A stretch of 37,908 bases of DNA from a virus. Below, in pieces: positions 1 to 37,908 of the stretch. The position numbers were made by a program, and so were the translations under genes. The number at the start of each line of letters is the position of its first letter. Positions within the stretch are counted from its first letter, which is position 1. The stretch lies in IMG/VR virus record IMGVR_UViG_3300031240_000022, positions 1-37,908 of that record; one strand, written 5' to 3'. Under the pieces are notes generated by a model. The model did no database searches. It had not been told where the DNA came from and worked only from the letters and a program-made list of their open reading frames with translations.

Positions 1-195
1 CTGCAACTCCGACACGTGCAGACAAGATCCCACTTGGAAAACGGTTTGATTCAATTGCTGTACAATATACGATGCGAGAAGCGGTCGCCGACGGGTATCT
101 TGTGCCGATCTTGCTTGACGTGGCGAAAATTCCTGACCTCGATTATGGATCGATCAGGCGAAAAGACTTTAATGCAGATAGCGCCGGAGCACTGC
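1..195. repeat. Terminal overlap, left copy
   Basis: This stretch matches 37714-37908 base for base except at position 69 (A here, C at 37782). The helicase reading frame continues unbroken when the two ends are merged. The pattern fits assembly overlap of a circular or permuted genome better than a true terminal repeat, because both ends fall inside one gene. Confidence 0.95.
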
Positions 196-1217: not shown

Positions 1218-1563
1218 GACAGAACAGCGCATTCTTGAACTGTATCAGGAAAACAAGACGATACCTGAGATCGCGCGAATCATCGGCAAGACCTATGCCG
1301 GAACAAAGAGCACGATCCATTTCATTCGAAAGCGCGGCGAGCCGTTTCCGCGTCGTAACAAAACAGCGGCGAATATGCCGATTGACATTCCGACCGACGT
1401 TGACGGGGATATTGAGAACGGCAAGCGGTGCCCGAAGTGCTGGCTTCTGTTTACCGATCGTTCCGACTGTACGCCAGCGCAATGCATGGCGCGCACCGAG
1501 GTTATTTCTGAACACCTGCCTGCAATCGGGCTATTATTCGACCGCGCATACGAGGAAGAATGA
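1207..1563 (+). CDS. Helix-turn-helix protein with a C-terminal Cys cluster
   Basis: A 118-residue protein. Residues 1-45 look like a helix-turn-helix of the sigma-region-4/resolvase kind: an ILELYQENKTIPEIARIIG helix pair followed by a recognition-like KSTIHFIRKRG helix. The C-terminal half carries CPKC and a later C-x5-C pair (DCTPAQC), consistent with a small zinc-binding fold. The start overlaps the helicase end by 11 nt, and the stop overlaps the primase start as ATGA, so it is translated within the replication operon. A DNA-binding role in early control or in primase/helicase loading is inferred from position only; no specific family is recognised. Confidence 0.75.
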   Translation: MLNKTEQRILELYQENKTIPEIARIIGKTYAGTKSTIHFIRKRGEPFPRRNKTAANMPIDIPTDVDGDIENGKRCPKCWLLFTDRSDCTPAQCMARTEVISEHLPAIGLLFDRAYEEE

Positions 1564-2339
1564 GCGCAAAAGCTTGGAAGATTCTAGAAGATCGCGGCTT
1601 GCGCGAGGAAAACGGACAGTTCAAGACGCTATGTCCGGCCCACGCTGATAAGAAACAGTCACTTCAGGTAATGCGAAACGATAAGCAAGTTATACTTTTA
1701 CGGTGCTTTGCGGGTTGCGCCACGGTTGACGTAGTCGAGGCACTGGGGATCAAGATGGGTGACCTATGGCCCGAAGACGATGTTATTGTTCCTCCGCCGC
1801 CTGGCAAGCTAATCGCCACCTACGATTACGTAGACGAGCAAGGCGCCACGTTGTATCAAGTTTTGAGGTATGATCCAAAGGCATTCAAGCAACGCCGCGC
1901 CAATGGCACATGGAAGCTAGGCGACGTGCGCCGCGTACTGTATCGACTGCCGCAACTGCTTGCGTCAGATCGTCCGGTTGTAATCGTAGAAGGGGAAAAG
2001 GACGTTCACAATGTCGAATCTCTGGGTTTCCTTGCGACAACTGTTAGCGGGGGGGTGGAGGGATGGCGATCGGAATTTGCTGATGTATTACGAGGAAGGG
2101 TCTGCATATTGCTCCCTGACGACGACGATCCAGGGCGACAGTTTAGCGCGCACGTTGCTACTTGGTTGCCCTATTCCGTTGGGTTGCAATTGCCTGGACT
2201 GCAACCCAAACAGGATGTCTCAGACTGGATCGCCAGCGGAGGAACAGCGGCGGACCTAAGGGAACTTGTACGCGGCGCGGCCGCCAGTAAACTTGACGTT
2301 GCAACCGCCGTGGCTAAGCGGCTAGGGGCGATCCGGTGA
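1560..2339 (+). CDS. DNA primase: zinc finger plus TOPRIM, without helicase domain
   Basis: A 259-residue primase that should synthesise RNA primers for lagging-strand or initiation synthesis. The N-terminus has a CHC2-like zinc site: C25, H28, C49 and C53 (CPAH, then RCFAGC). A TOPRIM core follows: VIVEGEKD (catalytic Glu144) and the acidic cluster LLPDDDD around residues 187-190. The family in T7 (gp4) and related phages normally continues into a hexameric helicase; here the protein stops shortly after TOPRIM. The only helicase in the window is the SF2 gene two positions upstream. Start and stop both overlap neighbours by 4 nt (ATGA, GTGA), indicating tight translational coupling. Confidence 0.88.
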   Translation: MSAKAWKILEDRGLREENGQFKTLCPAHADKKQSLQVMRNDKQVILLRCFAGCATVDVVEALGIKMGDLWPEDDVIVPPPPGKLIATYDYVDEQGATLYQVLRYDPKAFKQRRANGTWKLGDVRRVLYRLPQLLASDRPVVIVEGEKDVHNVESLGFLATTVSGGVEGWRSEFADVLRGRVCILLPDDDDPGRQFSAHVATWLPYSVGLQLPGLQPKQDVSDWIASGGTAADLRELVRGAAASKLDVATAVAKRLGAIR

Positions 2340-2722
2340 AGTTCATCATAGACGGCATACCGCGAACCAAAAAGAATTCGATGCGTCCGTGGAAACGCGG
2401 GAACCGCACGTTCCTTATACCCTCAGCGGCGGCAACGTCGTGGACCGCGTCTGCCGTTCGGCAGTTGCAGGCGCAGCTATGCGCGAACCCAATCGATTAC
2501 CCCGTGTCGTTGAACGCGCAGATCTACCGCGCGCGTCGCACCGGCGATTTAGGCAACTACTTGGCTGCTATATGCGACGCGTTAGAATCGGCCGAGATCG
2601 TTACTAACGACAAGTTTATACTTTCCTTTGACGGATCGCGACTTAAACATGACGCATGCAACCCACGTGTAGAGATAGAACTAACGGAAATGGCCAGCGA
2701 ATCGTTAGATCCGCCAGCCTAA
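2336..2722 (+). CDS. RusA-like Holliday junction resolvase
   Basis: A 128-residue protein with a GTG start overlapping the primase stop. The order of motifs is that of RusA: N-terminal IDGIPRTKKN, then GDLGNYLAAICDALESAEIV followed at once by TNDKFI. RusA-type enzymes cleave four-way junctions before packaging or during recombination. The canonical metal-binding motif is DLDN; here the second aspartate is replaced by glycine (DLGN), while the first Asp, the DAL Asp and the ND Asp remain. Either the metal site is rearranged or activity is altered. It ends the rightward operon and faces the leftward block, with only 36 nt between. Confidence 0.78.
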   Translation: MKFIIDGIPRTKKNSMRPWKRGNRTFLIPSAAATSWTASAVRQLQAQLCANPIDYPVSLNAQIYRARRTGDLGNYLAAICDALESAEIVTNDKFILSFDGSRLKHDACNPRVEIELTEMASESLDPPA

Positions 2723-3030: not shown

Positions 3031-3447
3031 CTACTTCGATTGTGATGCAACCGGACATGAATCAACACACGTAACTACCTCTCCGTGGCTCCCGACGTCC
3101 ATGCATGGCATGTTCGGGTAACGCGCGCTTCCGTCGAAATTCGTGCACTTGTAATGCGAGCCATCCTCGCATGAATACGTGATCTCGCCCAGGGTAATCG
3201 GTTGCTCGCACGCTGGCAGTGGCGAGCATTGCGCGTTGCAGTCGTTGACAATCAGGTATGACTTTCCGGTTGCCGCGTCGATCGCGGTGAACACCGGCGT
3301 AGCGGCGTTGCCAGGCAACGTAGCGCATTCGAGCTTGACGTTTAGGTCGAAGCGTCCGCACGCAACCGGCGATGGCAGGATGTTATCGCCACATCCAGTG
3401 ATCATAGCGCAGGCCAGGGCGAGTAAGAATGCAAGTCGAATCATCAT
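3031..3447 (-). CDS. Cys-rich secreted lipoprotein (138 aa)
   Basis: The N-terminus is a lipoprotein signal: MMIRLAFLLALACAMITGC, with lipobox ITGC and lipidated Cys19. The mature part is rich in cysteine (roughly ten), so it is probably disulfide-bonded in the periplasm or on the outer membrane. An SD (GAGGAGA) lies inside the upstream gene, and the ATG overlaps that gene's stop as ATGA. Phage-encoded lipoproteins expressed outside the virion operon often block superinfection at a receptor; that role is an inference here. There is no recognisable enzyme motif. Confidence 0.8.
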   Translation of the reverse strand: MMIRLAFLLALACAMITGCGDNILPSPVACGRFDLNVKLECATLPGNAATPVFTAIDAATGKSYLIVNDCNAQCSPLPACEQPITLGEITYSCEDGSHYKCTNFDGSARYPNMPCMDVGSHGEVVTCVDSCPVASQSK

Positions 3448-3620
3448 GATTTTCTCTCCTCAAGTCCGATGTTTGCTCTAATGTGCATTGCCGCGATCAG
3501 GCACACGGCCTGCAATCGGCCCCACGCGCGCGGATAATTCAGAGTTCCGTCGTCATTCTTAAGCGGCTCTCCAGCCTGTTCCGCCTCCAAGTACTCAACT
3601 ACTTCGTTCAGCGTTTTCAT
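3444..3620 (-). CDS. Small helical hypothetical protein (58 aa)
   Basis: A 58-codon gene beginning MKTLNEVVEYLEAEQAGEPL and ending IGLEERKS. It is acidic at the N-terminus and amphipathic helical throughout. The start has GGAG upstream. Its start overlaps the stop of the previous gene, and its stop overlaps the start of the lipoprotein gene, both as ATGA. This perfect chaining makes it a real gene despite its size. The phrase LKNDDGTLNYPRAWGRLQAV suggests a conserved small-phage-protein fold, but I cannot assign a family. Confidence 0.75.
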   Translation of the reverse strand: MKTLNEVVEYLEAEQAGEPLKNDDGTLNYPRAWGRLQAVCLIAAMHIRANIGLEERKS

Positions 3621-3787
3621 CGGTTGTCTACTCCGTTCTCGCCGTCTATTTGCCAGTTAGCAGGCAACGTGGAAGGATGCTTAATCGGCATTCCCTCGCA
3701 GTCGCATTCGTCACACTTCCCCGTGCACAGTCCACGCGTGGTGTGCGCGTGGGAGTCTGCAGGATGGGGGCAGTTGCAGGTTTTCAT
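3617..3787 (-). CDS. Cys/His-rich putative zinc-binding protein (56 aa)
   Basis: A 56-residue protein beginning MKTCNCPHPADSHAHTTRGL with six cysteines and three histidines in its first 30 residues (CNCPH, then H-A-H, then CTGKCDECDC). The pattern fits a treble-clef or zinc-ribbon fold. Both ends overlap neighbours by 4 nt (ATGA). It may bind nucleic acid or a host protein; no family is recognised. Confidence 0.75.
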   Translation of the reverse strand: MKTCNCPHPADSHAHTTRGLCTGKCDECDCEGMPIKHPSTLPANWQIDGENGVDNR

Positions 3788-3981
3788 TTTCCCGCGCCCG
3801 CCGCGCGAAATTGCTCTTTGGCCTTGGACGTCATTACCTTAAGGACATTTTCAAGATTGCGACGTGCCTTATCTCGTGTGCGATACGAAAGAGACATATC
3901 GCGCGATTTTTCATAATGCCGAAGCGCATCGGCAACAATCGGGAAGGCTTCCTTGAAACCATCTTTTTGCGTCGTGTTCAT
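3784..3981 (-). CDS. Small basic helical protein, first gene of leftward operon (65 aa)
   Basis: The start ATG 3981 lies six bases after a -10 box, so translation probably begins at the 5' end of the mRNA without an SD. The protein is lysine/arginine rich with alternating charged residues, predicted all-alpha (YEKSRDMSLSYRTRDKARRN). No enzymatic motif is seen. It leads a four-gene chain (3981 to 3031) in which each stop overlaps the next start. Basic charge suggests nucleic-acid binding, as an inference only. Confidence 0.72.
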   Translation of the reverse strand: MNTTQKDGFKEAFPIVADALRHYEKSRDMSLSYRTRDKARRNLENVLKVMTSKAKEQFRAAGAGK

Positions 3982-12843: not shown

Positions 12844-13590
12844 TTGTCAAAGCGAATCGGTCGCGTGCATTGCGTATTGCCCGATGGCCAGGTTAGACCG
12901 GGAGTCGATCTCACTCACTGGAAATGGATTAGCAACTACATCGCAGCGAAGCGCCCGGACGTAATCGTTAACATTGGCGACTTCGCCGATATGGTTTCGC
13001 TCAATAGCTATCAAGTTGGCAAGGCAGACGCGGAGGGTACGCGATATGAGTCCGACATTAAATCAGCTAGATTGGCTATGTCGTATCTCATGCGATCTTT
13101 TGCTGGTCTGCGCGGGTACCATCCTCGGTTGGAATTTACGCTTGGCAACCACGAAGACAGAATCACAAGAGAAGCGCAAGACAACCCGAGATTGATTGGC
13201 ACGATTTCGGTTGACGATCTTGGATACAAAGAGCACGGATGGAGGGTGAATGACTTTCTCAAAATCGTCAACATCGATCGCGTGGCTTACTCTCACTATT
13301 TCATTTCGGGGTCCATGGGACGACCTGTTTCCAGCGCTGCGGCCCTGCTACGGACTAGACAGCAATCATGCGTAATGGGTCACGTTCAACGGATCGATCT
13401 GGCGGTTCATCCTTTCACGCAAAACATAGCCCTTTTTAGTGGAATTTGTTACACGCACGATGAAAATTACTTGACCCCGCAGGGCAACAATACAAAGCGT
13501 GGAATTTGGATGCTAAACGAAGTAGCAGACGGCACCTTTGATCCTATGTTCGTTAGCTTGAACTACCTACGCCGGAACTACGCGCGTTGA
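12844..13590 (+). CDS. Calcineurin-like metallophosphoesterase in the virion operon
   Basis: TTG start with a perfect-looking SD (CCGGAGG). The 248-residue protein has metal-site motifs of the calcineurin-like superfamily: NIGD (Asp46), GNHED (101-105), a downstream His (YSH) and GHVQ (His180). The usual first D-x-H motif is not evident near residue 13, so one metal ligand may be altered. It sits between portal and scaffold, an unusual place for a phosphoesterase. It could be a nuclease, a nucleotide phosphatase or a virion-maturation factor. The superfamily is clear; the substrate is unknown. Confidence 0.8.
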   Translation: MSKRIGRVHCVLPDGQVRPGVDLTHWKWISNYIAAKRPDVIVNIGDFADMVSLNSYQVGKADAEGTRYESDIKSARLAMSYLMRSFAGLRGYHPRLEFTLGNHEDRITREAQDNPRLIGTISVDDLGYKEHGWRVNDFLKIVNIDRVAYSHYFISGSMGRPVSSAAALLRTRQQSCVMGHVQRIDLAVHPFTQNIALFSGICYTHDENYLTPQGNNTKRGIWMLNEVADGTFDPMFVSLNYLRRNYAR

Positions 13591-17785: not shown

Positions 17786-18577
17786 GTGCGTAATCCCTTT
17801 AATCAATTCAGGATTACCAAGACGGACGTCGATCAAGTCAACCGTGAGTTTGATCTGGTGCGCTCTGCGTTCGATGTCATCGGAAACCTGATCGACGGCA
17901 TTGGAACGGTTAAAGGAGCCAAGGGTGATACCGGCGCAACGGGAGCAACGGGGGCAAACGGAACGAACGGAACTAATGGTTCTAACGGAACTAACGGCAC
18001 AAATGGAACCAACGGAACAAATGGCGTAGACGTTGGCGGATTTGTAATTAACTGGTCCTTCGGTATGCATCCTGATACCTATGGCGACGTCTTCCCTGTC
18101 GCGACAGAATCGGACCCTCAGTTTTTCTTTAACCAAACCGCGTGGGGAGGACAATATACGTCATGGACGTTTGCGAATGGTGGCGGTAACACAATCGTCA
18201 CCAATTCAGCGGGCCAACAGATTATAGAATTTCCCGTCAACGGCGGCCCATGGTCAAAGTGTGACTTGGTGGTTAAGTTCTGGGAGGCGTTGCCGAATAA
18301 CAGCAGCACTGCCTCCGGGTTTCTGTATGTCACCAAGAACAGCGGCGCGCTTACGCCAGTAACAACCGGCGCGTCTATTGGCATGGCCGGCAACGGCGGC
18401 GTTGGTACGCTATCGCCCGGTGGTACTCCGATCGTTAGATCGTCGACCGGTAACGCGATCTCATTTTCTGCCGGTGATTACATTGGCTTATACTTCACTG
18501 GCGACACGGGTTATCGTACGCACCTTCCGACTGACTCTCGCTATCGGTTTACTGCAACCGTGAGACTATACAACTAA
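17786..18577 (+). CDS. Collagen-like fibre protein (263 aa, GTG start)
   Basis: GTG start immediately after the adaptor stop. A helical N-terminus (residues 1-43) is followed by 12 Gly-X-Y triplets (44-79), ending in a run of G-T/S-N units, then a C-terminal beta-rich head of about 180 residues resembling a C1q/TNF-like trimer (strands SFGMHPDTYG, YIGLYFTGDTG). Such proteins form trimeric whiskers or side fibres. It sits between the adaptor and hub genes, so it may decorate the neck. The triplet DNA is a short degenerate tandem repeat and prone to length change. Confidence 0.82.
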   Translation: MRNPFNQFRITKTDVDQVNREFDLVRSAFDVIGNLIDGIGTVKGAKGDTGATGATGANGTNGTNGSNGTNGTNGTNGTNGVDVGGFVINWSFGMHPDTYGDVFPVATESDPQFFFNQTAWGGQYTSWTFANGGGNTIVTNSAGQQIIEFPVNGGPWSKCDLVVKFWEALPNNSSTASGFLYVTKNSGALTPVTTGASIGMAGNGGVGTLSPGGTPIVRSSTGNAISFSAGDYIGLYFTGDTGYRTHLPTDSRYRFTATVRLYN

Positions 18578-21500
18578 TGCCAACGTCGCAAATCGTTGAA
18601 TGCCCGATCCTTGGCCCTAACGAGCAAGCGCCGGATACGGCGGCGCCCCCTGGACGCATCGCAAGGCTTTCGAATGCCGTGGCAACCAAGTTTGAGAATG
18701 GACGTCTCAAGGTAGGCGCGCGTGATGGTTTTGCACAACTTACTAAGCACGTTTCCAACCCAGATCCTACGGGTTTTGGCATCATTTCGACCACCGGGTT
18801 CACGTCGCCACCTACGCTGCTGAGTTCATTTCGCAATCAGTTGTCGGTAGTCGCTGGCGATAAACCGCACGTTCTGGCCGAGGATTCCCCGTCATGGTCA
18901 CAGTTCCAGTATTCGCTTAACACGCGATCGTTGCGCCAGACGCCGTTTTACACCGCTACGAATTCCGTGTCATGTCCCGATGCAGCGTGCATTGGCGATG
19001 TCGTTTGTTACGTATGGAAACAAACCAACGAAACGACCGACATTACGACCGCGTACGTTACGATCCGAGACAAAGACGGCACGCCGCTTCGTCTCCCCAC
19101 TGGCCTGGCCGACAGTGCCACCAACGCCCCGGTTGCGATCAAGGTAGTCCAAGACGGTACGTATTTTTGGGTGTTTAACAGCGCGGGTACCACTATGCAG
19201 GTGTTCGTCTATGACACCACTGGCGCTCTACTTGCGCAGACCACGTTCGCTACGCTTGCGTTTGTCGAGGGTCCGCCGAACCTTGCCGCAAGATGGGATG
19301 TTGTGTGTGAATTCGATAACGTAGTCCGTTGGTTTGGCCCGACGTTTTCCTGTCCCGCCGCGCTGTATCACCTGACGTATTCTTCTGGAATCGTCACGTC
19401 GATGTTGCACGATCTGACAGTTCCAACATCTGGCACCGATGCATTTGGGGCGATCGCGTGGCTATCGAACGCGACCGACGTTAACCATAGCTATCTCGCG
19501 CTGTACAGCTATACCGCTGGCCTATACGTTTTCTCCGTTGCAAACAATGGCGCATTTGTTCACCGTTACACCGTCCATGCAGCCGCAGGAACACTTGACG
19601 CGCTACAGTTATCCGGATACGTCGATGCGTCCCTGACGGTGCACGCGCTTGTTTCGATCCAATCATCGCCAGTCAACTGGACAGACGCTTACCACTGCAC
19701 CACGTCCGACGTTGTAACGCATGAATTGCGCTACACGATCACGGTTGCGTCGCGTAGCTTTCTGCTTGGTACCATTTGGACCAATATCGTTTACTACGAC
19801 GACGGTAGTAGCCAGCCGACGTTCTTTCTTTACAACTGGTCCAATGGTCAAATGATCGGTTGCTGGTCACATGGATTTGCGGCGCAAGAGTGGCAGAATT
19901 CACCCACTAGCCAAGGATACCTTTCGCGTAGCAATTTCTCGGTTCCGAGTCCGTACCTTGCCAATGACGGCGGGATCCATTTTGCCGTTGGGTACCTCGC
20001 GGAGACTTTTGTGCGCGGGGTTCAGGAGCTTACGGGCGCGGCCAATGGCAAATTTCAGCAGGTAATTGTTGACAAGTGGGTGTCGGCCGTTGGGCTTGCG
20101 GACGTTGAAATCGGAACCGACGGAGAAGCGGTCGAATACGCCGATACGCTGCTAATGCCTGGCCCGCTAGCCAATGACTTTACCGGCTCGCAGTTTCAAG
20201 AGGATGGCTTTTGCCTTTACCCTTTTGCTGCCACTCTGACGCCGAGTCATTCGGACGCCGGTAACCTGACGCTACTTGGTTCGTATACGTGGATCTTTTG
20301 TTGGGCATGGAATGATAGCAACGGCAACCGAATTCGATCGCGTCCAAGCGATCCGTATAAACTCACGTTGACCGGAACGCAAAACATCGTCGAGATCGAC
20401 GTCAACACTTTGTTCATGACGAACAAGTCAGACGTCCAACTTGAGGTTTACCGATCTTACATGGCGGCCGGCGCCGAAAGTTCGGAGCGGCGCAAAATCA
20501 CGGACGATCTTAAGCCCATCTTAAATGACAAGGCGTCACCTCAGATTCATTACGCCGACAACGTACTTGATTCCGTTTGTGAGAAGGGCCAGGAACTTTA
20601 TACGGACAAAGGCCTCTTGCCGGTCGACGCTTGTCCGGCGTTCTCTTCTGGTTGCGTATTCGGCGGGCGCGTTGTTGTCGTTGGATTCGACGGAACGCTG
20701 TATTTCTCTAACGAAAAGCAACCCGGGCGGCCGCTTGAATTCAACATTGACACGCTTCGAATGACACCGCCGTCGTCAGATCCGATCGTCAACGTCAAGG
20801 CGTTGGATTCTTCGCGCGTGATCCTATTCTGTGAGGGTAGCGTTTGGGAATGGAACGTTGGTCAACTGCCCGGTCCCGATGGACTCGGCGGAAATATTAT
20901 CACGCCAACCGTGTTACAGGGCTTTGCCGGCTGCACCGGAAAGGCATTTCTTACCAGCGATGGCATTGTTTACTCGTCTTCCAATGGCCCGTGGATTTGC
21001 ACCCGCGCGCTTACGAATCAGTTTATCGGTGCTCCAGCGATTGACGATCTTGAGCACAAAACGATCCTTGGATTCGCGCAGGACGACGATCAACGGTTGC
21101 TAATCGGCGTTGCCGGTTCGCTTGTGCCACAGGTAATGCGCGATGCGATCTCGGGCGTATGGTCAACCTTCGCACTGCCAAGCATTACGCTACTTGTTCA
21201 CGCGTGGCGCGGCCACCTTTGTTACGCGGACACTGATTCCGTTCGCGTACAGCAAAAGGGATCTTACGTCGATACGGACTCGCTTGGAACGTACCCGATT
21301 GAAATGGACATTCTCACCGCACCGATTCAAATCGGCACTATCAAGGGAATGAAAGTCCTATGGGACACGATCCTGACCGGCAAGTACCTAGGTCCTCATC
21401 GTATACTAGTTGACTTTGACTATCTCACGGAAGACGGAACAGTTTCCGAGTCATTCAACGAATTGCCATCGTCCGACGGTGGTATTTATGGGTTTGGACT

Positions 21501-21726
21501 TTATGGTGAATTCATCTACGGTGGAGGAGGCAACCCTCAGTATGAACTTGAGTTTCAGCCCATTGTCCAAGAGATTGAGTCCGTGACGATTCGCGTACGA
21601 ACCGACTTCACGGGGATTGACTCGCCTGGACAGTCGTTTGAACTAGAGCTTTTCAGTTTCCAAATTGGCGTTGACAGCAAACTTTCCCGCGTACCACCGT
21701 CGGTTAGGCGCGGACAGTCCTCCTAA
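18577..21726 (+). CDS. Tail hub / packaged-DNA stabilisation protein, very large (1049 aa)
   Basis: Start overlaps the fibre stop (TAATG). The N-terminus (VECPILGPNEQAPDTAAPPG and RIARLSNAVATKFENG) resembles gp10/gp12-type hub proteins that bind below the adaptor. The rest is strand-rich with many aromatic and Thr/Val stretches and a repeated blade-like rhythm, suggesting one or more beta-propellers. P22 gp10 is 472 residues and T7 gp12 794, so this is large for the family. A copy of the intercistronic element follows. The hub assignment rests on order, length and fold pattern. Confidence 0.7.
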   Translation: MPTSQIVECPILGPNEQAPDTAAPPGRIARLSNAVATKFENGRLKVGARDGFAQLTKHVSNPDPTGFGIISTTGFTSPPTLLSSFRNQLSVVAGDKPHVLAEDSPSWSQFQYSLNTRSLRQTPFYTATNSVSCPDAACIGDVVCYVWKQTNETTDITTAYVTIRDKDGTPLRLPTGLADSATNAPVAIKVVQDGTYFWVFNSAGTTMQVFVYDTTGALLAQTTFATLAFVEGPPNLAARWDVVCEFDNVVRWFGPTFSCPAALYHLTYSSGIVTSMLHDLTVPTSGTDAFGAIAWLSNATDVNHSYLALYSYTAGLYVFSVANNGAFVHRYTVHAAAGTLDALQLSGYVDASLTVHALVSIQSSPVNWTDAYHCTTSDVVTHELRYTITVASRSFLLGTIWTNIVYYDDGSSQPTFFLYNWSNGQMIGCWSHGFAAQEWQNSPTSQGYLSRSNFSVPSPYLANDGGIHFAVGYLAETFVRGVQELTGAANGKFQQVIVDKWVSAVGLADVEIGTDGEAVEYADTLLMPGPLANDFTGSQFQEDGFCLYPFAATLTPSHSDAGNLTLLGSYTWIFCWAWNDSNGNRIRSRPSDPYKLTLTGTQNIVEIDVNTLFMTNKSDVQLEVYRSYMAAGAESSERRKITDDLKPILNDKASPQIHYADNVLDSVCEKGQELYTDKGLLPVDACPAFSSGCVFGGRVVVVGFDGTLYFSNEKQPGRPLEFNIDTLRMTPPSSDPIVNVKALDSSRVILFCEGSVWEWNVGQLPGPDGLGGNIITPTVLQGFAGCTGKAFLTSDGIVYSSSNGPWICTRALTNQFIGAPAIDDLEHKTILGFAQDDDQRLLIGVAGSLVPQVMRDAISGVWSTFALPSITLLVHAWRGHLCYADTDSVRVQQKGSYVDTDSLGTYPIEMDILTAPIQIGTIKGMKVLWDTILTGKYLGPHRILVDFDYLTEDGTVSESFNELPSSDGGIYGFGLYGEFIYGGGGNPQYELEFQPIVQEIESVTIRVRTDFTGIDSPGQSFELELFSFQIGVDSKLSRVPPSVRRGQSS

Positions 21727-31247: not shown

Positions 31248-31428
31248 CAGCCGGAAGCGCCGCGACCATGTTCTTTATGGTCAAAAGTACGCTTCTGTGT
31301 GCCTTGAATGCCGGATCGTTAGCGTAGCGCGTGATAAGTCCAACCGCGCGTCCGATCGCGCCGTTACCGGCGTTGCGCTCCACTTGATCGTATAGCGAGC
31401 GAACCAGCGCCTTGTCAGCGTCGGTCAT
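31231..31428 (-). CDS. Hypothetical protein (65 aa), last gene of leftward operon
   Basis: Starts with a TAATG overlap on the SSB gene. Helical (MTDADKALVRSLYDQVERNA) and basic at the C-terminus. It may be an SSB-associated factor or a small nucleic-acid-binding protein. No domain is recognised. Confidence 0.65.
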   Translation of the reverse strand: MTDADKALVRSLYDQVERNAGNGAIGRAVGLITRYANDPAFKAHRSVLLTIKNMVAALPAVSESR

Positions 31429-31808
31429 TACCAGTCTACCTTGTCATCGCCAAGTGGATGACTCGCCGTTTTCGCGTCCGGTTTCTTTGACGACGCATCG
31501 ACCTTGACCGAGGTAGCAGTCAGAACGGCAACCCATTTATTATAGCCGTCGATCATGATCGCCTCGCGCGCCTTGTTCTTGACAAGCTCAGAGTCAACGC
31601 GACCGAGAACCGTAACCCGCGCGCCGTCAAGCAATCGGCCAATGTCGCCGATGCATTCCGCATCGAACGTGCGCACGTCAAGGATCTTCTGTCCCTTCTC
31701 ACCGGGAACGTCGATCGTCAAGCTTGCGAATTTGCCGCCCGGCGACAGAAACTTGCGCTTGACAAAGCCGACGATCCGAAATCCCGCGCCTTCTGATGGT
31801 TCGTTCAT
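31428..31808 (-). CDS. ssb: Single-stranded DNA-binding protein
   Basis: A 126-residue OB-fold protein. Strands FRIVGFVKRKFLSPGGKFAS, then SLTIDVPGEKGQKILDVRTF and ARVTVLGRVDSELVKN follow the SSB order. A flexible linker ends in an acidic tail, DDKVDW, comparable to the DDDIPF tail that recruits partners. It protects ssDNA and should cooperate with the FEN-annealase upstream in the same strand block. The start at 31808 follows GGGAAG. Confidence 0.8.
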   Translation of the reverse strand: MNEPSEGAGFRIVGFVKRKFLSPGGKFASLTIDVPGEKGQKILDVRTFDAECIGDIGRLLDGARVTVLGRVDSELVKNKAREAIMIDGYNKWVAVLTATSVKVDASSKKPDAKTASHPLGDDKVDW

Positions 31809-32898: not shown

Positions 32899-34644
32899 TC
32901 AGTCGTTTCCGCCCAATTCCTCATAGGTCGCCAAACCAAGTCCAGCGCCAGGGAACACCACGCGAGTCAACAGTGTTGCGCAAGTCTTCTGCAACATGGC
33001 CCGGCGATTCTTCTGCCACGGGTTGCGATCGTCGCGGACCTTTTCTCCAGACTTGCCAACCGGCTTAGGGGCAAGTTCAAGAGTCGTAATCCCCGCTTGT
33101 ACCGCTTCCTCGATTGAGTAGGTGTACGATACCTCTCTTCCTTGCGGCCACGACTTGCGCCGCGCAACATAGGTGCATTGGGTCATCGTCGACTCGGTCA
33201 TGATGAAGTATTCGCAATCAGGGTGCGATTCGGCGAGATGAATCACCAAGTGCGCCTTGGGGGCAAGTTGCTTGCCCTGTCCGGCGTCCATCGGCCAAAA
33301 CATGTCCAGTGCCTCTACTCCGCAGTAACCCATTGCGCGCCCGCGTGCCATCGCCGCGAAGATCTGTTCCTCGGTTGAATACTTCGAAAACAGGCGCGAT
33401 TCATGAAGAATCTTCGCCATCTTCATGGCGCCACCGGGAGAGGTAGGCTCTAGCTGTTTCGTGAATTCAGCCACGACAAGCGCGCGAGGTTCAACGATCG
33501 TATCAACGTGAGGGACAATGCCATGCCCCGCGTCAGTGGTGACCGGCAACACTCCTGTATTTACAGTCGGGTCCGGGGTGTCTGACGCGGGGCTTTCCGC
33601 CTTGGCTGGCGTCACAACGGTCTGACTTGGCTCATTGGCCGCTTTCGTTTCGTTTTCCACCGTTGCACTTCCCTTTTCAATGGGGGGAACATTACCGGGC
33701 GAGAATGCCCGATTGATCACGTTTGCAGTATCTTCGCCGAAATCGTCGACATCGTCAAGGTTGTAATTCGCCGATGCTGTCACGGTCGGCCTTCGTTCAT
33801 CGTAGATATCTTCGAAGCGGATGGGCGCGTTGACAGCAAGGCCGACAAGCCTCCTTGATAGCATGACAACGTCCATGCACGCAACTAGATTCGCGCGAAC
33901 GGCCTTGTTTGACTTCCAAAACGGTTCCATGACGGTCGCGGCGTTGTGCGCATAGGTGCCATCGTCATTCTTGAGAAACGCACCATCGGCCGACCGAGCT
34001 ATGACAGCGTCAAAGATTCGGTCAAGGCTTCCGTAGGTTTGCAGAAGTTCCGTTGCCGTCTTCTTTCCGACCCCCTTGCAGCCTGGAACGTTGTCCGACG
34101 TATCGCCGGTTAGCGCAAGCCAATCGCCGATCTGACGCGGAGCAACACCGAATTTCTCAGACACAACGTCCGTATCGATCAATACCCAATCATGCGTTCG
34201 GAGGACCTTGGTGTGGTCGCCGGCAAGCTGGCACAAGTCCTTATCGTGACTTGCGATCACAACGTCATGGCCAAGCGCCAACGCCGCATCATGCGCGGTC
34301 GCAATGACATCGTCCGCCTCGAAACCCTCGGCTCGCCAGCAAAGATAACCCTCGGCCTTGAGCTTTTCGATCGTGCCGTCGAATAGGCCATAGAACGATG
34401 CGGGCTTTTTCTCGCGCTGCGCCTTGTATTCGACATACAGATCGCGGCGCCACGACTTGCGATCATCGCAGCAGATCGCCACCAACGCGTCAGACCCGAC
34501 CATGCCGCTGCACTGGCGGACGCCCGCGATCGTGATGTCTTGGACTTTCGAGATCGAGTCCGTTTCCGCGACCACGTGCCAAGCGGCATGGTAAAGCGCG
34601 GAAATGTCAATCAAGAGGACCGTCGGCTTTTCGTTGTTTTCCAT
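32899..34644 (-). CDS. Fusion of 5'-3' exonuclease (FEN) and RecT-like single-strand annealing protein
   Basis: A 581-residue two-domain protein. Residues 7-215 are a Pol I-type 5' nuclease: D13 (LLIDIS), D60-D61, EADD (109-112), D134/D136 (SHDKD) and D181/D184 (LTGDTSDN), then the helix-hairpin-helix GVGKKTATELL. After an extended Pro/Ala/Thr-rich linker (about 320-395), residues 400-581 look like a RecT/Bet annealase: ARGRAMGYCGVEALDM, RRKSWPQGREVSYTYS, then DRNPWQKNRRAMLQKTCATL and ATYEELG at the end. The start is ATG 34644; the frame upstream runs only through the 18-bp array. The protein would resect 5' ends and anneal the exposed strand. Exonuclease and annealase are usually separate genes. 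Confidence 0.85.
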   Translation of the reverse strand: MENNEKPTVLLIDISALYHAAWHVVAETDSISKVQDITIAGVRQCSGMVGSDALVAICCDDRKSWRRDLYVEYKAQREKKPASFYGLFDGTIEKLKAEGYLCWRAEGFEADDVIATAHDAALALGHDVVIASHDKDLCQLAGDHTKVLRTHDWVLIDTDVVSEKFGVAPRQIGDWLALTGDTSDNVPGCKGVGKKTATELLQTYGSLDRIFDAVIARSADGAFLKNDDGTYAHNAATVMEPFWKSNKAVRANLVACMDVVMLSRRLVGLAVNAPIRFEDIYDERRPTVTASANYNLDDVDDFGEDTANVINRAFSPGNVPPIEKGSATVENETKAANEPSQTVVTPAKAESPASDTPDPTVNTGVLPVTTDAGHGIVPHVDTIVEPRALVVAEFTKQLEPTSPGGAMKMAKILHESRLFSKYSTEEQIFAAMARGRAMGYCGVEALDMFWPMDAGQGKQLAPKAHLVIHLAESHPDCEYFIMTESTMTQCTYVARRKSWPQGREVSYTYSIEEAVQAGITTLELAPKPVGKSGEKVRDDRNPWQKNRRAMLQKTCATLLTRVVFPGAGLGLATYEELGGND

Positions 34645-34647: not shown

Positions 34648-34660
34648 ATTACACCCGCGC

Positions 34661-35158
34661 CTAGCCGTACACCTGCGCATAGCCGTGCACCTGCGCATCG
34701 CCGTACACCCGCGCATAGCCGTGCACCTGCGCATCGCCGTACACCCGCGCATCGCCGAACACCTGCGCATCGCCGTACACCTGCGCATAGCCGTACACCT
34801 GCGCATCGCCGTACACCCGCGCATAGCCGTGCACCTGCGCACCGCCGAACACCTGCGCATAGCCGTACACCTGAGCATCGCCGTACACCCGCGCACCGCC
34901 GAACACCTGCGCATCGCCGTACACCCGCGCATCGCCGAACACCTGCGCATCGCCGTACACCCGCGCATCGCCGTGCACCTGCGCATCGCCGTACACCCGC
35001 GCATTGCCGTACACCTGCGCATCGCCGAACACATAAACAGATGCTTCTACCGTTGCAGTATCGGCGATCCACCCGCCTCCGTTGACATGGCGATGCGCCG
35101 CGACTAATCCGAATCCAAAGTCAAACATGTTTTCCATCATTTCTTCGTTGTTTTCCAT
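34661..35158 (-). CDS. Hexapeptide-repeat, left-handed beta-helix protein (165 aa)
   Basis: ATG 35158 (MENNEEMMEN) overlaps the upstream stop (TAATG). Residues 43-165 are 20 repeats of V-[YFH]-G-[DYGN]-A-[QR] plus a partial one, preceded by degenerate hexads (IADTAT, VEASVY). Such repeats fold as a left-handed parallel beta-helix, with Val and Ala inside and the other positions outside. The protein ends directly after the last VYG. It has no signal peptide, so it is probably cytoplasmic or a virion part. Related repeats occur in acyltransferases, but no catalytic domain is attached. A binding surface or rod is the best guess. Confidence 0.78.
   Translation of the reverse strand: MENNEEMMENMFDFGFGLVAAHRHVNGGGWIADTATVEASVYVFGDAQVYGNARVYGDAQVHGDARVYGDAQVFGDARVYGDAQVFGGARVYGDAQVYGYAQVFGGAQVHGYARVYGDAQVYGYAQVYGDAQVFGDARVYGDAQVHGYARVYGDAQVHGYAQVYG
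34664..35032 (-). repeat. 18-bp tandem array, about 20.5 units
   Basis: The unit on the minus strand is GTGTACGGCGATGCGCAG (one hexapeptide). Units vary at codon 2 (TAC, TTC, CAC), codon 4 (GAT, TAT, GGT, AAT) and codon 6 (CAG, CGG). I see just one silent change (GCT for GCG, near 34858). All six frames stay open because the unit has no stop codon in any frame. Confidence 0.92.
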
Positions 35159-35161
35159 TAC
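35144..35161. repeat. 18-bp direct repeat, right copy
   Basis: Identical to 34630-34647, 514 bp away. It covers the TAATG junction between the small gene at 35158-35349 and the hexapeptide gene. Recombination between copies would remove the hexapeptide gene cleanly and join the upstream gene to the FEN-annealase with the same TAATG junction. Confidence 0.85.
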
Positions 35162-35349
35162 CATCCCCCGCAAGGAATCTGTGAGCGAATTAGTTTGCGT
35201 TTCTTCGCGTCGGACCATCCCGACGGGACCTTGACCGAGTTTTTGCGACCGACGAAAATTCCAGCACGGCACAATAGCTCAACTTCTACGTAGGCCAGAT
35301 CCCAGACGTTCGAAGCCGTGATCCTTGAGAGCCATACCGCTGGTTCCAT
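35158..35349 (-). CDS. Hypothetical protein, first gene of the recombination operon (63 aa)
   Basis: ATG 35349 follows a promoter whose -10 is nine bases upstream. Basic C-terminus (KVPSGWSDAKKRKLIRSQI) and a hydrophobic middle (VWDLAYVEVELLCRAGIFVG). Its TAA overlaps the ATG of the hexapeptide gene. No family is recognised. A DNA-binding regulator is conceivable. Confidence 0.65.
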   Translation of the reverse strand: MEPAVWLSRITASNVWDLAYVEVELLCRAGIFVGRKNSVKVPSGWSDAKKRKLIRSQIPCGGW

Positions 35350-36078: not shown

Positions 36079-36181
36079 TGACGCTAGAAGTGCCAAACAT
36101 AAATGCACGCGACAGTGGAGCGCAAGCAGGCTCAAACCTACGCCACGCCGTTAGATGTCTCCCCGGCCCGAGCTAGCGTCA
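36079..36181. repeat. 9-bp inverted repeat with 85-bp spacer
   Basis: TGACGCTAG (36079-36087) and CTAGCGTCA (36173-36181) are exact complements. They lie between the tRNA-like element and the homing-endonuclease gene. The pairing is perfect but short. Confidence 0.4.
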
Positions 36182-36229
36182 ACTATTCGAGGTATTGCGT
36201 CACCTTCTCCAAGGCGCATAAGGAGAAAC

Positions 36230-36664
36230 ATGATCACGGACGAATGGCTGTCTGGATTCATAGACGGCGAAGGATCCATAGGGATCGCCGGACACGGCGG
36301 ATCTTTGCAGCCTCGTTTTAGAATTAACCAACGTGATGACGATGGCGATCTTGTGCGCGCAATACGCGAATACATCGGACTCGGTACGTTACACGGAAAG
36401 TATGACAGGAAAAATATCAACGCAAAGCCTCAGCTTGCGTATTGCCTAGTTGGCTCCGATTGCAATGCGTTAACGGCAATCCTGGACCGCGCTCCTTTGC
36501 GTTCAAAGAAGCGGTTTGAATATCCGCACTGGAAGAAGGCGGTAGAGATTTACTCAAACAACTTGTGCAATAGGTGGTCAGGCGATCTCGTGGCACGTGG
36601 CGCAATGTTGCAACCACTGAAAGACAAAATCGAGGCATCTCGCCTATATATCGGAGCACGATAA
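36230..36664 (+). CDS. LAGLIDADG homing endonuclease, single-motif (144 aa)
   Basis: ATG 36230 follows a strong SD (AAGGAGA). The motif LSGFIDGEGSIGI (7-19) is the LAGLIDADG helix with catalytic Asp12/Glu14. Single-motif members act as homodimers that cut long DNA sites and copy themselves into them. No intron or intein host is seen, so it looks free-standing. Its stop shares bases with the methyltransferase start (TAATG). Confidence 0.85.
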   Translation: MITDEWLSGFIDGEGSIGIAGHGGSLQPRFRINQRDDDGDLVRAIREYIGLGTLHGKYDRKNINAKPQLAYCLVGSDCNALTAILDRAPLRSKKRFEYPHWKKAVEIYSNNLCNRWSGDLVARGAMLQPLKDKIEASRLYIGAR

Positions 36665-37200
36665 TGGGACCTTTCTCAGCGGTGGTAGCGGACCCTCCGT
36701 GGTTTTTCAAAGACTCGCTTCCGGGCGAGACACGCGGAGCGGTTAAGCAGTATCAATGCATGTCAACGCATGACATTTGCAACATGTCATTGCCACCGAT
36801 CTATGACAATGCGCTTCTGTTTCTTTGGCGAGTGTCGTCGATGGTTCGCGAGGCGTATGACGTCGTCCATCACTGGGGATTTAATCCTCATTCCGAGATC
36901 GTCTGGCGCAAGCTCACGGCAACCGGCAAAGAAGCATTCGGCATGGGCAGGATCGTTCGCGGCGCCCACGAAACTTGCATCATTGCGAAGCGCGGGAATC
37001 CGATTATCGTTTCGTCTTCCTTGCGGTCGATTTTCTCTGCAAAGGTTGGCGAGCATTCGGAGAAGCCGGACGCGTTCTATGATATCGTCGAAAAGATCAC
37101 AGGAACACACACCGCCAAGGTGGAGCTTTTTGCGCGTAAGCAACGGCCAGGCTGGACTTGCCTTGGACTTGAGTCCGACGGAACGGATTTCCGCAAGTGA
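36664..37200 (+). CDS. MT-A70-type adenine methyltransferase (178 aa)
   Basis: The motif DPPW (10-13; ADPPWFFK) is the catalytic motif of the MT-A70 family, which methylates N6 of adenine. The SAM-binding part follows (LFLWRVSSM; ITGTHTAKVELFARK at the end). It ends GTGA-overlapped with the helicase. In phages this enzyme typically protects DNA from restriction or marks replicated DNA. The site recognised is not deducible. Confidence 0.83.
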   Translation: MGPFSAVVADPPWFFKDSLPGETRGAVKQYQCMSTHDICNMSLPPIYDNALLFLWRVSSMVREAYDVVHHWGFNPHSEIVWRKLTATGKEAFGMGRIVRGAHETCIIAKRGNPIIVSSSLRSIFSAKVGEHSEKPDAFYDIVEKITGTHTAKVELFARKQRPGWTCLGLESDGTDFRK

Positions 37201-37908
37201 TTCAAACGTCTCTTTTTGGCCTTCCCGAGCAAGAAAGGCCACGCGCGCCGGAGATCGTCCGTTCTAATGACTGGACATCGCGCGGTTACCAACTTGAGGC
37301 ATCGCGGCGCTTCTTTGAGCTAATCGACAAAGAAGGTTGCACCGCGCCGCTGTTGCGCATGGCAACCGGCACCGGGAAGACGCGCACCGCTGGCCAGGGA
37401 ATCATACAGCACTGGCTGGCAGAACATCGCGGGCCGGTTCTCGTGCTGTGCCATCTGAATACGCTAATTACACAGTTTCGCAATGAACTAGCGAAAATGC
37501 TACAGATCGATATCGGTCTAGAGCAAGGCGATCGAACGTGGGAAGGCGAACGCGTTTGCGTTGCGTCCACCGCTTCGCTGTATCGTGAAGCGCGCATGCG
37601 TCGCCTTGGGCCACGTCCAACGCTTGTAATCTGCGATGAGGCACACCATTATGTCAGCAAACAAAACCATGCCCTGCTCGATAAGTTTACCAGAGCAAAA
37701 TTCTGTGGGCTTACTGCAACTCCGACACGTGCAGACAAGATCCCACTTGGAAAACGGTTTGATTCAATTGCTGTACAATATCCGATGCGAGAAGCGGTCG
37801 CCGACGGGTATCTTGTGCCGATCTTGCTTGACGTGGCGAAAATTCCTGACCTCGATTATGGATCGATCAGGCGAAAAGACTTTAATGCAGATAGCGCCGG
37901 AGCACTGC
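37197..37908 (+). CDS. SF2 DEAH-box helicase, N-terminal part (continues at base 1)
   Basis: GTG 37197 overlaps the methyltransferase TGA. The first lobe has Walker A MATGTGKT (55-62), DEAH (147-150) and motif III TATPTR (173-178). The gene is cut by the contig end and continues at base 1 to 1217, for 577 residues in all. DEAH-type SF2 motors with this order are ATP-driven nucleic-acid translocases; a replicative or restart role is inferred because it precedes the primase. Confidence 0.92.
   Translation, partial: MIQTSLFGLPEQERPRAPEIVRSNDWTSRGYQLEASRRFFELIDKEGCTAPLLRMATGTGKTRTAGQGIIQHWLAEHRGPVLVLCHLNTLITQFRNELAKMLQIDIGLEQGDRTWEGERVCVASTASLYREARMRRLGPRPTLVICDEAHHYVSKQNHALLDKFTRAKFCGLTATPTRADKIPLGKRFDSIAVQYPMREAVADGYLVPILLDVAKIPDLDYGSIRRKDFNADSAGAL
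37714..37908. repeat. Terminal overlap, right copy
   Basis: Matches 1-195 with one substitution (C at 37782, A at 69). Merging gives a circular 37,713-bp map. Confidence 0.95.

Follow-up and report, generated by a model that had tools for sequence, protein, structure and literature searches.

The locus and its reading frame

The gene described here lies on IMG/VR virus record IMGVR_UViG_3300031240_000022, a viral DNA of 37,908 nucleotides that was analysed over its whole length (the window), and it is predicted to join a FEN-type 5′ nuclease to a RecT-type annealase in one polypeptide. The frame begins with an ATG at 34644 and runs on the minus strand to 32899, stop codon included, giving 581 codons with no internal stop; the plus strand over the same interval (32899-34644) contains many stops. 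An earlier, sequence-only reading had described this 581-codon frame, leaving its strand unnamed, as an exonuclease and an annealase separated by an extended linker, and the frame is borne out. Its parts are as follows.

32899..34644 (-), FEN-RecT fusion gene, 581 amino acids, one frame without interruption; 54 other contigs share the architecture
33790..34644 (-), FEN / Pol I-type 5′ nuclease domain, residues 1-285, predicted from PF02739, PF01367, fold matches and carboxylates
33460..33783 (-), linker, residues 288-395, predicted to be disordered (predicted local distance difference test score, pLDDT, <50 over 288-395); no ATG
32914..33459 (-), RecT/Red-beta annealase core, residues 396-577, predicted from PF03837, a hidden Markov model (HMM) of standalone RecTs and the 7ujl/7ub2 fold; only a few residues follow it

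These boundaries are those of a predicted model of the full chain (FEN 1-285, disorder 288-395, RecT 396-577), in which the C-terminal region takes the Red-beta/RecT fold and not an unrelated one. The RecT-like segment had been placed at about 400-581 from the sequence alone, which is correct. The extended linker is likewise confirmed; it had been called Pro/Ala/Thr-rich, and its composition in the window protein is rich in V/T/A/P/D. Across the fusion family described below the linker is 49-188 amino acids long and poorly conserved.

The nuclease half

The N-terminal half matches PF02739 at 9.4e-26 and PF01367 at 2.6e-20, both exceeding the cut-off, and the N-terminal portion of the NCBIfam polA model matches the FEN domain at 3.3e-50. 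The predicted fold of this part matches E. coli ExoIX, M. smegmatis FEN, T5 FEN, Taq polymerase and T4 RNase H. Reading the translation places D13, E109-A-D-D112 and G180-D-T-S-D-N185 exactly where the sequence-only reading had put them, and the full set of metal-ligand carboxylates comprises D13, D60, E109, D111, D112, D134, D136, D181 and D184. These carboxylates are kept across 53 distinct fusion proteins, the sole exception being D13 in one N-truncated copy, whereas the aligned last motif of ExoIX is without carboxylates. By its motifs the 5′ nuclease domain is catalytically complete, and 5′ exonuclease or flap activity is predicted. The fold and the catalytic carboxylates are common to the known FEN / Pol I 5′ nucleases (T5 FEN, T4 RNase H, ExoIX, the Taq 5′ nuclease), but these are free-standing or joined to a family A polymerase, and here the partner is a RecT core.

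The annealase half

The window sequence alone scores E=0.0025 (17.8 bits) against PF03837, under the 24-bit cut-off, and its C-terminal half gives two weak PHROG RecT matches; a phmmer search of the window C-terminus against the PDB gave no match. From such single-sequence evidence a RecT call would be a guess, and it is the relatives that make it firm. When the RecT profile check was extended to the aligned family, 11/11 members matched PF03837 (E<=0.1), the best at 2.7e-10. An HMM built from standalone RecTs only finds 11/11 fusions, the window at 1.2e-22 and the others at 2.5e-24 to 3.5e-43. Conversely, a profile of the 11 C-termini run against all PDB sequences returned a single entry, lambda Red-beta 7ujl (E=0.0065).

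By fold, too, Red-beta 7ujl ranks first in the PDB. AlphaFold2, given a 28-row alignment, models the C-terminal domain with a pLDDT of 86.8. Out of 350,542 chains, the two that Foldseek places highest are Red-beta 7ujl (probability 1.00, E=1.6e-3) and phage A118 RecT 7ub2 (probability 0.90, E=0.045), and the TM-scores of these matches, 0.41-0.55, are moderate. Residues W543, M550 and R561 of the core are nearly invariant among the fusions. On this combination of profiles and predicted structure, the C-terminal domain is homologous to RecT/Red-beta, and strand annealing is its predicted activity.

A family of fusions

Single-sequence searches of viral contigs with the window protein found no relatives, because the protein is divergent, and alignments were required. 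Against deposited phages, tblastn gave two weak matches, one to a small protein whose gene lies two genes away from that of a RecE-like exonuclease, the other to the annotated RecT of Streptomyces phage ToastyFinz. RecT relatives were collected from IMG/VR through an alignment of the window C-terminus with these two matches, and FEN relatives through an alignment of the FEN half; ten loci of the FEN-relative set carry both domains in a single frame. With two further viral-contig scans and one GTDB genome scan, and with seven loci on contigs already counted subtracted, the total stands at 55 contigs. Besides the window, these are 53 other IMG/VR contigs and a single contig from a betaproteobacterial metagenome-assembled genome. 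The GTDB scan added that one fusion and three standalone RecTs. The search for other FEN-annealase fusions that the sequence-only reading had proposed thus shows the architecture in 54 further contigs.

The 55 contigs encode 53 distinct proteins, each in a single frame; the stop or frameshift between the domains that had been named as a possible weakness occurs neither in the window gene nor in the 52 other distinct fused proteins. The ratio of non-synonymous to synonymous substitution rates (dN/dS) is <0.5 for both FEN and RecT in 9/9 pairs tested and mostly <0.3, while the linkers drift; both domains are therefore maintained by purifying selection. The FEN-RecT fusion is real and not an assembly accident. 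Each of 11 fusion records tested has one RecT of the fusion type. With five fusions as queries, none of 50,697 deposited phage records contained a place covering 80% of the query. A deposited phage match, MT835516, has no clear RecT gene and was left out of the alignments.

Fusions cluster in both trees, with 2 label changes on the RecT tree (contig-edge fragments removed) and 3 on the FEN tree, of which one may be an edge-truncated contig (L096), against ~33 in shuffles. The fusion thus likely arose in one or very few events. Three apparently standalone members of the fused clade (L220, L230, L239) have frames that run off the end of the stored stretch and are probably truncated fusions. Two members, L093 (3992-5557) and L100 (3992-5539), have near-identical FEN and linker parts and clearly different RecT parts, with a sharp boundary at the linker end: their DNA is mostly 87-100% identical over FEN and linker and 57-78% at RecT, recovering at the stop codon. 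Within the gene, RecT has been exchanged as a module.

Missing C-terminal extension and separate exonucleases

All untruncated fusions end -4 to +10 amino acids relative to the RecT core, whereas 41/41 standalone relatives extend 66-256 residues past it (median 122). In Red-beta the stretch that follows the core (193-261) is where lambda Exo and E. coli SSB bind; annealing can do without it, recombination cannot (PMC8303780, PMC5052646). The annealase of the SynExo two-component recombinases carries a C-terminal docking domain, while the untruncated fusions stop at the core. YqaJ or DUF3799 exonucleases occur in 0/25 fusion records versus 10/25 standalone records, the latter following in part the known plan of a RecT with such a nuclease (one-sided Fisher ~0.0003, a value that ignores relatedness, many records being fragments). 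No standalone locus has a FEN gene adjoining its RecT. The absence of both the C-terminal extension and a YqaJ or DUF3799 exonuclease suggests that the covalent FEN has taken over from the separate exonuclease and its docking domain. The architecture, its conservation and the missing extension are direct properties of the sequences.

Proposed mechanism and its alternatives

We propose, with a probability of about 0.74, that the product of this gene is a single-chain exonuclease-annealase, in effect the SynExo recombinases Exo/Bet and RecE/RecT in covalent form; its nuclease, tether and RecT core are assigned from sequence and structure prediction. The FEN domain would resect or trim 5′ ends and so expose a 3′ single strand, onto which the tethered RecT core would be delivered in cis to coat it and anneal it to a complementary strand. 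That strand could lie at a replication fork or, where the phage genome is broken or concatemeric, at its other end. Flaps left after annealing could be a natural second substrate of the FEN domain. The earlier suggestion that resection and annealing are coupled in one chain holds in so far as both domains sit in one conserved, selected chain; coupling in cis we infer, and it is better founded because the fusions have neither the exonuclease- and SSB-docking C-terminal domain nor a separate YqaJ/DUF3799 exonuclease.

Several points weigh against this proposal. The nuclease and annealing functions of all family members are predictions, and the window RecT domain sits on a long branch (~1.2) with its own Pfam score under the cut-off. 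The tail lengths were measured with an HMM made from the fusions, although the further extension of the standalone relatives is a plain sequence fact, and the likeness of those tails to the Red-beta C-terminal domain is one of position after the core. The fusions are related to one another, so contrasts with the standalone records are not independent, and the exonuclease absence covers two families only, YqaJ and DUF3799. The Red-beta C-terminal domain also binds SSB, for which the fusion has no visible substitute. Finally, FEN enzymes are typically structure-specific and of low processivity, which makes long resection by the FEN domain an assumption, and some FENs chiefly remove RNA primers and flaps.

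This last point leads to the main alternative, in which the FEN half would serve replication by removing primers and flaps, the RecT half would mainly tether it to single-stranded or annealed lagging-strand DNA, and end resection would be secondary. The Pol I-like character of the FEN domain seen in the polA match would fit such a role, as would the primase-like protein and the helicase encoded in the window. A family A DNA polymerase was found neither in the window nor in the first 10 fusion relatives or the 28-record fusion set, other polymerase families not having been searched; the earlier statement that the window has no phage polymerase thus stands for family A, and host Pol I would fill in. 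The recombination-dependent replication that the same reading had put forward is a hypothetical role of the fusion. Yet host Pol I already brings its own FEN, and a replication role leaves unexplained why fusion records have no separate exonuclease and why the RecT core is so strongly constrained. We regard this alternative as unlikely, though deserving serious attention.

An improbable elaboration is that the gene yields two products, the full chain and a free RecT isoform of ~210-320 amino acids from a start within the linker, such that annealase would exceed nuclease. A linker ATG with a Shine-Dalgarno-like match >=4 is present in 22/38 non-redundant fusions, and such a match precedes 33% of linker ATGs versus 6% in FEN and 13% in RecT. 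Synonymous-codon shuffles nearly equal the observed counts (match >=4, 22 observed versus 18.9 expected, p=0.07; match >=5, 13 versus 9.6, p=0.05), because acidic codons preceding Met resemble Shine-Dalgarno sites. The window linker has no ATG, leaving the isoform unsupported for the window protein; in some members it is possible, not clearly beyond what amino-acid context gives. Early in several linkers (e.g. L088, L089, L274) there is a recurrent acidic run followed by Met, with a Shine-Dalgarno-like sequence, where an internal start is possible.

A RecT-derived C-terminal domain that has lost annealing and serves as a DNA-binding tether would fit the divergence of the window RecT domain and its sub-threshold Pfam score, but RecT dN/dS is below FEN dN/dS in most pairs and core positions such as W543, M550 and R561 hardly vary, and we consider such a loss quite improbable. 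Joining of two neighbouring genes by assembly or sequencing error, for which no evidence was found and which one uncultivated contig by itself would not have settled, is refuted by the relatives: 55 contigs from many samples, with divergent sequences encoding 53 distinct proteins, are all fused, and no standalone relative's locus has an adjoining FEN gene.

Returning to the single-chain exonuclease-annealase, a broader proposition, to which we give somewhat less than even odds, is that in a clade of uncultivated phages the two-component recombinase became one enzyme. The domain that docks the exonuclease and the host SSB would have given way to a covalent link, yielding a fixed 1:1 resection-annealing machine, possibly independent of host-specific SSB contacts, with RecT as an exchangeable module.

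Relation to known systems

Among the closest known systems is lambda Red (Exo = Red-alpha, Bet = Red-beta), in which a 5′ nuclease and a RecT/Red-beta annealase likewise serve one genome. Lambda Exo is a toroidal trimer of another fold, whereas the fusion is one chain with a FEN-type nuclease and no C-terminal domain. SynExo systems consist of an annealase and a nuclease as two proteins; in the window family both are found in a single frame in 53 distinct proteins. RecE/RecT and the YqaJ- or DUF3799-RecT gene pairs that have been described (PMC8093625) share with the fusion a RecT-family annealase and a phage-encoded 5′-3′ nuclease, but theirs are separate neighbouring genes and the nuclease is of another family.

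The sequence-only reading had contrasted the FEN domain with the nucleases normally paired with annealases. Separate genes are indeed usual, but the cooperation of a FEN-family 5′ exonuclease with an annealing protein has precedent in T7 gp6 with gp2.5 and in poxvirus G5, the work on G5 being cited in PMC7824862. These are separate proteins, and gp2.5 is an OB-fold protein, not a RecT. Exonuclease-annealase pairs and FEN nucleases are thus well known, and the natural FEN-RecT fusion forms a sizeable, apparently unnoticed family. No description of it was found in the literature searched, the scope of which left out Iyer 2002, Lopes 2010 and InterPro, and an earlier mention is possible.

The fusion family extends the phage recombination repertoire, no deposited phage record of it having been found. 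The way in which lambda Exo, a trimer, and Red-beta, a multimer, assemble with 1:1 subunit stoichiometry has been named an open problem (PMC7496540). In a natural single-chain enzyme that ratio is fixed, and the passage from resection to annealing can be tested directly. Should the enzyme function in the absence of an SSB-docking domain, it would also be a candidate tool for double-strand recombineering in bacteria to which Red and RecET do not transfer well.

Genome context

The remaining features of the genome that bear on the gene are the following.

1..195 (.), direct terminal repeat of 195 bp, left copy, 194/195 identical to 37714-37908 (base 69 differs, A/C)
37714..37908 (.), direct terminal repeat, right copy; the contig ends are spanned by the helicase gene
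1560..2339 (+), phage primase-like protein (phrog_6088, 3.4e-33)
2336..2722 (+), RusA-like Holliday junction resolvase (PF05866, 6.4e-6)
34661..35272 (-), upstream YdcK-type beta-solenoid repeat gene (PF18836, 1.9e-22), 16 nt before the fusion start

With the terminal repeat and a helicase frame running across the ends, the contig is probably a complete genome of ~37.7 kb. The RusA-like resolvase is a plausible recombination partner. A tyrosine integrase is found in 13/25 fusion records and not in the window, and searches with the window portal and terminase against deposited phages gave no match.

An 18-bp tandem array of 21.3 copies (34650-35032) encodes the YdcK-type beta-solenoid, and the fusion frame is open through the array up to 35046. 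At 31428-31808 (-) lies a 126-amino-acid protein without known family; in L088 a 39% related frame (3269-3874) overlaps the end of the fusion gene. Beside the helicase, a LAGLIDADG endonuclease at 36155-36664 (+) (PF00961, 5.1e-13) overlaps the start of an MT-A70 methylase frame (36574-37200). The head gene block includes, downstream of the portal-like gene, a metallo-phosphoesterase at 12844-13590 (+) (phrog_221, 1.2e-38). A 1049-amino-acid protein at 18577-21726 (+), outside the PHROG families, has relatives in the fusion-bearing contigs G006 and G009 and, weakly, in G008.
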